Shown here: one piece after another, positions 32,812 to 34,563 of the stretch
How the letters are laid out: each line of letters starts with the position of its first letter
Numbering within the stretch: the stretch's first letter is position 1
Translations under genes and position numbers: made by a program
Source of the DNA: Pontibacter coccineus
GTDB taxonomy: Bacteria; Bacteroidota; Bacteroidia; Cytophagales; Hymenobacteraceae
Assembly: GCF_030546575.1 (NCBI RefSeq)
Contig: NZ_JAUOTN010000001.1
Coordinates: 682,001 to 746,000 of the forward strand
Length of the DNA: 64,000 nt
Direction of reading: 5' to 3'
The notes under the pieces: generated by a model
Databases searched by the model: none
What the model was told of the DNA's origin: nothing
Seen by the model: the letters and a program-made list of their open reading frames with translations, nothing else

Positions 32812-33714
32812 CTATCTCTTCTCTGCGATTCTTAGTTTGGCGCTCCGTGAGCGGCTGTTCTCGAGCAACTCCTGTTCGGAGGCTGTGATCGGCTTGCGGC
32901 TGACGGCGTCGAGTGGTTTTTTCTCGTTGCCGAACAGGTCTTTTTCCACTTCGCCGAAGAATTTGCCTTTGGCGATGAAATTCTTCACCAGCCGGTCTTC
33001 GAGTGAGTGGTAGGACATGACCACCAATCTTCCTCCGGGCTTCAGCACCTCGGCCGCCTGCTCCAGCATTTCCTCGAGCGCCTTCAGCTCGTCGTTCACT
33101 TCTATGCGAAGCGCCTGAAACACTTGCGCCAGGTATTTGTTCTCCTTCCCGCGCGGGGTGCAGGAGCTGATGGCTTTTTTAAACTCACCGATCGTTTCAA
33201 TCGGTTGGCGAGCTCGTTGCGACACGATCACGCCGGCCAGCGTTTTGGCGTTTTTCACTTCGCCGTAAATGCCGAAGATCTTGTGCAGCTGCTCCTGGCT
33301 GTAGGTGTTCACCACCTCGCTTGCAGGTATACCTGACTCCGGGTCCATGCGCATGTCCAGCGGACCGTCGAAACGGGTCGAGAAACCACGCTCGGCTTCG
33401 TCGAACTGGTGCGACGACACACCCAGGTCAGCCAGAATGCCGTCCACTTCTTTCACGCGGTACAGACGCAGGTACTTTTTCAGGTCCCGGAAATTGGCGC
33501 GTACGAACGTGAAAGCCGGGCTGTCAATCTTCTTCGACTGCTCCTCGGCGTCGCGGTCCTGGTCAAACGAGTAAAGCTGACCTGTTGTCAGCTTGCTGGC
33601 GATTACCCTGGAGTGACCGCCGCCTCCGAACGTCACATCCACATACACGCCGTCTGGTTTAATTTCCAGTGCGTCGATGCATTCCTGCAACATGACTGGT
33701 CTGTGGTACTCCAT
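32812..33714 (-). CDS. rsmH: 16S rRNA (cytosine(1402)-N(4))-methyltransferase
   Basis: SAM-dependent methyltransferase acting on C1402 of 16S rRNA. The 300-residue protein begins with the family pattern YHRPVMLQECIDAL. The SAM motif is YVDVTFGGGGHSR, then GILADLGVSSHQFDEAERGFS, and VMSYHSLEDRLVKNF near the C-terminus. Its ATG shares a base with the mraZ stop (TAATG), indicating coupled translation. Confidence 0.97.
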   Translation of the reverse strand: MEYHRPVMLQECIDALEIKPDGVYVDVTFGGGGHSRVIASKLTTGQLYSFDQDRDAEEQSKKIDSPAFTFVRANFRDLKKYLRLYRVKEVDGILADLGVSSHQFDEAERGFSTRFDGPLDMRMDPESGIPASEVVNTYSQEQLHKIFGIYGEVKNAKTLAGVIVSQRARQPIETIGEFKKAISSCTPRGKENKYLAQVFQALRIEVNDELKALEEMLEQAAEVLKPGGRLVVMSYHSLEDRLVKNFIAKGKFFGEVEKDLFGNEKKPLDAVSRKPITASEQELLENSRSRSAKLRIAEKR

Positions 33715-34181
33715 TAAATCAAAGGCTCTGCAGCCGGTTTATCTCCTAAAAACTTCTCGGCTAGTTGCGAGAAACTCTGCTGGTCCTTGATCAGGAAGTC
33801 TTCATACCTGTCCGGGTTCCAGATCTCGACACGATTGCCCAGGCCTACTACAATTGCCTCCTTTTCCAGATCGGCGAAGCGGGCCATGGTGCGGGGCACA
33901 ATAAAGCGGCCCGTGCCGTCCAGCTCGATTTCCGTATTACCACGGAAGAAATTGCGCTGAAACTGGCGGTACTCCTCATTAAACTCGTTCAGACCCGCCA
34001 CCTTGTCATAGATCGTCTTCCACTCCGACTTCGGGTAGAGCACGAGGCAAGGTTCAAAGCCCCTTGTCAGCACCACATGATTGCCCGACGCCTCCGGCAA
34101 GTTGGTTTTTATCTTTGCAGGTAAAACCAACCTCCCCTTCGGATCAATCTTGCATTCATATTCGCCAGACAGGAAGTTCAT
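33714..34181 (-). CDS. mraZ: Transcriptional regulator MraZ
   Basis: Ring-forming DNA-binding protein with two AbrB-like half-domains, each with the DxxGR signature (DPKGRLVLP and DGTGRFIVP). Known MraZ proteins bind tandem GTGG-type repeats upstream of their own gene and control the dcw operon. I start at the ATG at 34181 (MNFLSGEYECKIDPKGR, 155 residues). The longer frame to 34274 would begin upstream of the promoter at 34221-34250. It is the first gene of the leftward dcw operon. Confidence 0.95.
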   Translation of the reverse strand: MNFLSGEYECKIDPKGRLVLPAKIKTNLPEASGNHVVLTRGFEPCLVLYPKSEWKTIYDKVAGLNEFNEEYRQFQRNFFRGNTEIELDGTGRFIVPRTMARFADLEKEAIVVGLGNRVEIWNPDRYEDFLIKDQQSFSQLAEKFLGDKPAAEPLI

Positions 34182-34220: not shown

Positions 34221-34250
34221 CAAATGTAACGATTCACCAAAAGACCGCAA
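34221..34250 (-). promoter_or_regulatory. mraZ (dcw operon) promoter
   Basis: On the minus strand TTG (34250-34248), a spacer of exactly 19 nt and TACATTTG (34228-34221) match the Bacteroidota consensus. The leader to the mraZ ATG at 34181 is about 35 nt. Confidence 0.8.
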
Positions 34251-34277
34251 CCACAATCTCCCACTTTTTACCACTTT
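34250..34277 (-). promoter_or_regulatory. Candidate MraZ operator: three GTGG boxes at 10-bp period
   Basis: Read on the minus strand, AAAGTGGTAA, AAAGTGGGAG and ATTGTGGTTG follow each other, placing CCAC on the plus strand at 34251, 34261 and 34271. The exact one-turn period and the position on the upstream edge of the -33 element match the known tandem MraZ-box arrangement. Confidence 0.7.
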
Positions 34278-34348
34278 GTGGATAAATTATGGTTATCCAC
34301 CCCACTTATCCACATTATCCACATTTCGGACCTTCATTTTGCGGATAA
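34277..34348. promoter_or_regulatory. DnaA-box cluster
   Basis: Perfect DnaA boxes (TTATCCACA) lie at 34277-34285 (inverse), 34306-34314 and 34315-34323 (tandem). One-mismatch boxes are at 34293-34301 (TTATCCACC) and 34340-34348 (inverse TTATCCGCA). A sixth, TTATCCACG in inverse sense, lies at 34525-34533. Confidence 0.75.
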
Positions 34349-34474
34349 GTTTATTTGCAGAAAATATCACCTTTCGTTAATATACGAGAGGCTATATATT
34401 TTAATGAATTGAAAATCAAGCAACTACCCCTCTAAACTGGTACATCCAGCACCCGCCACGGCATGTTTTCAGCA

Positions 34475-34513
34475 AAAGTGGGACAAAGTGGAGAATGTGG
34501 GACAAAGTGGGGC
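34475..34513 (+). promoter_or_regulatory. Second GTGG array, facing the metal operon
   Basis: AAAGTGGGAC, AAAGTGGAGA, ATGTGGGAC and AAAGTGGGGC follow in tandem on the plus strand with period 10, 10, 9. Further GTGG words lie at 34526, 34539 and 34548. They resemble the boxes near mraZ but point the other way. Confidence 0.6.
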
Positions 34514-34563
34514 GTTATCCCGAGCGTGGATAAAGTTTGTGGTAGAAGTGGGGTGAATTTCCG

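Follow-up and report, generated by a model that had tools for sequence, protein, structure and literature searches.

DnaA as a transcription factor and the autoregulation of MraZ are both already known. E. coli MraZ acts as a repressor of the operon in which it is encoded, and in Mycoplasma genitalium the division genes are repressed by MraZ (PMC8475190). Published MraZ sites, which the repeats described below resemble, read AAAGTG[T/G] in Mollicutes (PMC8475190); in Burkholderia they consist of four repeats of seven bases separated by three-base spacers (PMC7761207). Overexpression of MraZ in M. gallisepticum was accompanied by more FtsZ (PMC8475190), and MraZ may thus be more than a simple repressor. 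For DnaA, the passages of PMC8203912 used here describe control of nrdAB in E. coli and regulation of ftsZ in C. crescentus, and assign the DnaA boxes upstream of E. coli ftsZ no role in ftsZ transcription. In B. subtilis DnaA binds the ftsL promoter region (PMC8203912, PMC11019786), and when initiation was arrested at two oriC boxes, RsmH and PbpB (encoded with ftsL) were found at comparable levels, according to a passage of PMC11019786. The mioC promoter of E. coli is a direct precedent for overlap between sites of the two proteins, its DnaA box being overlapped by a site for MraZ (PMC4446571, citing Eraso 2014). The name mraZ does not occur in the DnaA review PMC8203912, PMC4447404 mentions none of ftsL, yllB, mraZ, mraW and nrd, and a literature search for DnaA together with yllB returned no paper. 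Judged by titles, abstract openings and passages of the cited papers, our literature search on mraZ, dcw or ftsL with DnaA, Bacteroidetes included, brought up no report of the arrangement described below; a fixed fusion of DnaA boxes with a MraZ operator at a dcw promoter, with a distal array, appears to be unreported.

We analysed a stretch of 64,000 nucleotides from Pontibacter coccineus (the window; G000:C4:682001-746000), whose genome comprises 4.66 Mb in 12 contigs. The MraZ protein encoded in the window matches that of Pontibacter sp. HSC-36F09 at 100% identity; with those of the remaining listed loci (33 Pontibacter and one Botryobacter) it shares 86-99%. Downstream of mraZ on the minus strand lies rsmH (Pfam MraW, E 7.3e-100), followed on the same strand by what we take, from their ORFs, to be more division and wall genes. 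The 139-aa ORF on the other side has no Pfam match, and the ORF map agrees with the first-pass annotation of this DNA in that the genes diverge on either side of the cluster described here. The features of the region are collected in Table 1.

Table 1. Features between mraZ and the divergent ORF (positions in the window).
Feature	Position	Strand	Basis or remark
mraZ CDS, first dcw operon gene	33714..34181	-	Pfam MraZ, E 1.2e-31; ORF
Predicted -7 element, TACATTTG	34221..34228	-	fits TAnnTTTG; conserved in genus alignment
Predicted -33 TTG	34248..34250	-	19 nt upstream of -7; directly behind last GTGG (GTGGTTG); column conserved
Proximal MraZ operator (predicted)	34251..34277	-	three GTGG repeats at 10-bp pitch, two reading AAAGTGG
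Box 4, predicted DnaA box TTATCCACA	34277..34285	-	abuts first MraZ repeat as TTATCCACAAAGTGG, one base in common; 52/52 identical
Box 3, DnaA-like TTATCCACC, weak	34293..34301	+	one mismatch; position kept, letters vary
Box 2, predicted DnaA box TTATCCACA	34306..34314	+	TTATACACA or TTATGCACA in 13/52 named loci
Box 1, predicted DnaA box TTATCCACA	34315..34323	+	directly adjoins box 2; 49/52 identical
AT-rich spacer	34324..34474	.	length nearly constant, sequence decayed
Distal inverted GTGG array	34475..34513	+	four repeats, 9-10 bp apart
Divergent ORF, 139 aa	34576..34995	+	ORF; precedes TonB receptor and HMA-domain gene

Boxes 1, 2 and 4 are the only exact matches to TTATCCACA in the window, and they indeed lie within 47 bp (34277-34323) between mraZ and the divergent gene, as had been claimed. 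All three one-mismatch boxes named with them are present (34293, 34340 and 34525); the first keeps its position among relatives, but the other two occur in just 10 of 37 genus loci. Boxes with at most one mismatch are not in excess across the whole window (15 against 11.85 expected), and the genome holds 35 exact boxes against 29 for a reversed-pattern control. Single boxes thus occur at about chance level and the signal is in their clustering: from the 35 exact boxes, arithmetic gives about 2e-6 expected triples within 47 bp per genome, and the cluster is the only site with three of them inside 1 kb. The cluster is not a chance product. The adjoining AT-rich stretch (34349-34428) was confirmed as well, with 71% AT against 48% for the window, a value reached by 21 of 3196 80-bp windows. 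The first-pass annotation had not seen the two arrays of GTGG repeats that flank the cluster (Table 1), nor that the cluster interlocks with the MraZ operator.

The predicted promoter of mraZ has a TTG that we take, from its consensus, to be the -33 element. Read on the mraZ strand, the order is the boxes, three GTGG repeats and then GTGGTTG-N19-TACATTTG, so that the third repeat runs into this predicted element, an overlap that would fit repression by occlusion. The -7 element matches TAnnTTTG, the sigma-A -7 consensus given for flavobacteria and Bacteroidota in PMC9723704. Boxes 1 and 2 stand head to tail, box 3 starts 13 bp past the start of box 2, and the inverted box 4 starts 16 bp beyond that of box 3 and leads into TTATCCACAAAGTGG; the four boxes keep a fixed spacing and lie some 60-110 bp before the predicted start. 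GTGG-type direct repeats of 10-bp pitch upstream of mraZ are what is expected of a MraZ operator; of the 11 mraZ loci examined in other families, 10 likewise have such repeats between -102 and -53. In Hymenobacter mraZ loci, GTGG occurs mostly as pairs 20 bp apart.

Each described system shares a part of this arrangement. The MraZ operators of E. coli, Mollicutes and Burkholderia, as the passages of PMC8475190 and PMC7761207 present them, have GTG-type repeats before mraZ with autoregulation, as predicted here. The repeats of E. coli and Burkholderia are found downstream of the -10 element, whereas here they reach the predicted -33 element from upstream; unlike those operators, the one studied here has flanking DnaA boxes and, upstream at a distance of about 200 bp, an inverted array. 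E. coli nrdAB and C. crescentus ftsZ have in common with it that DnaA boxes precede a cell-cycle gene (PMC8203912), regulation being predicted in our case. At B. subtilis ftsL, DnaA binds a dcw-cluster promoter region, the kind of region in which the boxes lie here, but the passages of PMC8203912 and PMC11019786 that treat ftsL describe no interplay with MraZ of the sort proposed for the composite site. The mioC promoter likewise combines overlapping MraZ and DnaA sites; there, however, the gene controlled is mioC, beside oriC, whereas here it would be mraZ with the dcw operon, and the site has four boxes and lies far from the GC-skew minimum as located in relatives.

We then compared the region among relatives. 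The cluster was in register in all 37 genus loci first examined, with box 1 altered in two of them (L050, L061), and in 11 of 11 additional genus loci, in one of which (L355) box 3 exceeds one mismatch. With a box of at most one mismatch at the positions of at least box 2 and box 4 as the criterion, all 52 named loci from Pontibacter, Botryobacter, Rufibacter, Adhaeribacter and Sabulibacter have the cluster; these largely coincide with the unnamed loci and are no independent sample. Exact copies among these 52 number 49 for box 1, 35 for box 2, none for box 3 and 52 for box 4, and column identities of boxes 1-4 are 0.99, 0.96, 0.91 and 1.00, while the adjoining 22 bp upstream reach 0.58. Several consensus boxes upstream of the gene, conserved in relatives, are the pattern expected of a DnaA-regulated promoter. 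The cluster was found in none of 28 named Hymenobacter and Solirubrum loci, one of which has a single one-mismatch box (boxes considered to -220). It is also absent from eight and a further four loci of genus g26, which a single sequence match, that of G158 to Hymenobacter sp. BT18, equates with Hymenobacter, and from five loci of genus g25. In the 500 bp upstream of 11 mraZ loci from other families, one has one exact box (L033), one has two one-mismatch boxes (L032) and nine have none. As Hymenobacter and g25 lack the cluster and only two of the 11 loci of other families have any such box, it is not needed for dcw expression generally.

The composite TTATCCACAAAGTGG occurs in 47 of 390 genomes of the order, with control hits in three. 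One other family (f15) has it in 8 of 19 sampled genomes, in all eight just upstream of mraZ, and five other hits (L197-L199, L208, L212) have no mraZ nearby; this check of loci left out six matches that had no locus and are not at a known mraZ. Across the phylum sample, a looser form of the composite was found in 6 of 395 genomes and the control likewise in 6, so there is no excess. Three of these six matches lie upstream of mraZ, namely that of the window's genome and those of G512 and G803 (one genus of the same class but another family), and the remaining three do not.

The conserved boxes could simply be further MraZ repeats, with MraZ and not DnaA as the ligand: TGTGGATAA contains GTGG, each conserved box of the window has it, and the cluster adjoins the MraZ operator. 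Box 3 would suit such an origin, since 48 of 52 loci retain GTGG there, none has an exact DnaA box at this position and the letters vary outside TTWTNCACA, the DnaA consensus used in PMC7561715; so would the three loci in which box 2 reads TTATCCACG or TTATCCACT, keeping GTGG and losing the last A. Part of the conservation could therefore be due to MraZ. The boxes, however, follow one another at 9, 13 and 16 bp with one inversion, whereas MraZ arrays have an even pitch of 9-10 bp; the ATAA/TTAT half of boxes 1, 2 and 4 is conserved equally with GTGG; and Hymenobacter retains GTGG repeats without the boxes. The substitutions in box 2 point the same way. Among its 17 non-exact copies in the 52 loci, TTATACACA occurs six times and TTATGCACA seven times, and these 13 copies break GTGG, keep TTATNCACA and fit TTWTNCACA; for box 1 one of three non-exact copies fits the consensus, box 4 is invariant and box 3 falls outside it. 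On pitch and box-2 substitutions we set aside the idea that the boxes are a mere by-product of MraZ repeats, and we regard MraZ as the sole ligand as unlikely. Boxes 1, 2 and 4 are accordingly called predicted DnaA boxes, and box 3 is assigned to neither ligand.

Two readings in which DnaA is the ligand but mraZ is not its target also have to be weighed. The first-pass annotation had proposed a possible oriC, which the box cluster, the AT-rich neighbour and the intergenic position would suit. GC skew does not support it. The skew signal is weak and, the window's genome being in 12 contigs, whole-replicon skew was taken from two relatives. In G031 (one contig, 20 stretches) the skew is negative from 1.10 to 3.10 Mb, except at 1.76 and 2.04 Mb where it is slightly positive, and positive from 3.40 Mb round to 0.90 Mb; mraZ lies at 1.904 Mb. 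In G020 (a main contig of 4.77 Mb and one other; 20 stretches) mraZ lies at 2.513 Mb, and in both genomes the stretches on either side of mraZ are negative, with no change of sign. Cumulative GC skew, one of the checks the annotation had suggested, was run on G020 with 20 further stretches and has its minimum at about 4.02 Mb, some 1.5 Mb from mraZ. All six stretches sampled from contig C4 of the window's genome are negative; within the window the skew, negative around mraZ, stays close to zero between about 36 and 50 kb and from there to the end returns to negative values. As to the position of dnaA, another suggested check, the gene is on contig C5 in the window's genome, not C4; in G020 it lies at about 1 kb on the main contig. 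Hymenobacter, moreover, retains mraZ without the cluster. We therefore rejected oriC on GC skew and consider it highly improbable. A datA- or DARS-type site, a cluster of DnaA boxes with an IHF-type site that affects the nucleotide state of DnaA, would instead lie near mraZ by chance and serve titration or nucleotide exchange. The presence of several strong boxes away from the skew minimum would suit this, as would another dense cluster, located between nuoN-like and aspS-like genes in three genomes of the genus. Box 4, however, is in register with the MraZ operator and the promoter even in a family in which the other boxes differ, which counts against titration because a titration site needs no such register. 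We consider this reading improbable too.

Other groups of boxes were noted in these genomes. The skew minimum of G020 (about 4020372-4026774, L175) coincides with a box pair, and DnaA-like boxes are scattered there and in the corresponding region of the window's genome (G000:C7, about 341-343 kb, L022), where the counterpart of the pair lies inside a gene that we take to be mnmG/gidA. This is the probable oriC region of the genus. The dense cluster of the three Pontibacter genomes (L151-L153, about 2000-2260) has six boxes with at most one mismatch in about 170-180 bp, flanked by what we presume to be nuoN and aspS; the skew does not change sign at this cluster in G020, and it is a possible titration site. 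One intergenic region of the window's genome (L080, about 930-1110; G000:C5:376937-377100) has three DnaA-like boxes, two of them exact, between genes that are presumably lytic-transglycosylase-like and O-methyltransferase-like.

The nrdB gene provided a control in the same genomes, since DnaA controls nrdAB in E. coli (PMC8203912). Fifty genomes gave a match and 30 nrdB loci were examined; of these, 29 have one or more exact boxes within 700 bp upstream, against 3 of 1120 background windows, and 25 have three or more boxes with at most one mismatch there, against 2 of 1120. Their positions are kept, at about -531 in 29, about -428 in 28, about -231 in 21 and about -174 in 22 of the 30 loci, and 64 of 83 one-mismatch boxes fit TTWTNCACA, against 22 of 180 in the background. 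These data suggest that the nrdB operon (ribonucleotide reductase) of Pontibacter is likely DnaA-regulated; it lies at G000:C7:434020-434976 and upstream in the window's genome, and at L316-L345 in the genus. In the Hymenobacter-type genus g26, a TTWTNCACA box precedes nrdB in 11 of 11 genomes and two or more do so in 10 of 11, against 49 and 4 of 1120 background windows drawn from Pontibacter genomes. Such boxes were also found before nrdB in g25 (3/3), g27 (1/2), g23 (1/1) and g24 (1/1). Because Hymenobacter has boxes at nrdB, the absence of the cluster from its mraZ looks specific to mraZ and not due to a changed specificity of DnaA.

The distal array accompanies the cluster. A pair of CCAC at repeat pitch between -380 and -270 was found in 52 of 52 cluster-bearing named loci against 0 of 28 from Hymenobacter and Solirubrum; shuffled segments gave 45 of 2600, and the opposite orientation 1 of 52. 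The last distal repeat lies 189-196 bp from box 4 in 35 of 37 genus loci, and 214 and 235 bp from it in the other two; the distances are 181-183 or 192-193 bp in Rufibacter, 185-186 or 195-196 bp in Adhaeribacter and 194 bp in Sabulibacter. The sequence between them has decayed, with a median pairwise identity of 0.65 among the 35 named Pontibacter and Botryobacter loci against 0.62 (sd 0.05) after shuffling. For these loci the mean difference in spacer length is at most 1.5 bp in each identity class and 7 bp at maximum, the distal repeat having been sought only 178-202 bp from box 4. A spacer constrained in length but free in sequence suggests that two MraZ-bound sites may be bridged. With a flank of roughly 1.5 kb inspected, the divergent ORF is present in 36 of the 52 named loci and was not found in 16; as the array is present in all 52, the idea that it serves the divergent metal-related operon alone is weakened. 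Of the eight f15 loci with the composite of box 4 and MraZ repeat, only L200 has upstream CCAC pairs at repeat pitch, so the wider pattern does not include the distal array. The genus alignment also keeps short motifs on the plus strand at 34328-34400, TTTGCA and roughly TAATATACGAG, which could mark a divergent promoter or the start of a small RNA.

We think it likely, from sequence and its conservation, that the cluster is a DnaA regulatory site of the mraZ (dcw) promoter fused to the autoregulatory operator of MraZ. DnaA control of the dcw operon, the other idea put forward at first, thus gains support from the conservation, the box-2 substitutions, the promoter geometry and the nrdB control. 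The findings cited above on E. coli ftsZ and on RsmH and PbpB in B. subtilis, in contrast, call for caution. From the known biology of MraZ, the protein on the proximal repeats would block RNA polymerase and repress the operon. DnaA at the boxes would alter the occupancy of MraZ through exclusion or contact where box 4 meets the first repeat or, alternatively, would contact the polymerase from upstream. Transcription of dcw would then track the level or nucleotide state of DnaA, that is, the initiation of replication. Since the boxes leave the core promoter free and are placed upstream of it, we lean somewhat towards activation or anti-repression over co-repression. With the distal inverted array as a second operator, MraZ may bridge the spacer. 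More tentatively, MraZ rings on the proximal operator and on the distal array, about 195 bp apart across the AT-rich spacer of constrained length, might loop the dcw promoter off, and DnaA at the foot of the loop might open or lock it, so that initiation would directly time transcription of the division operon; this is a possibility that we would not yet favour.

Taken together, these data suggest a direct and testable link between the start of replication and the production of division proteins. A conserved cluster of DnaA boxes is fused to the operator of a division operon in several genera, and a related genus that lacks the cluster offers a natural control. In a group for which our literature search found no such work, the coupling of replication and division through transcription becomes directly testable.
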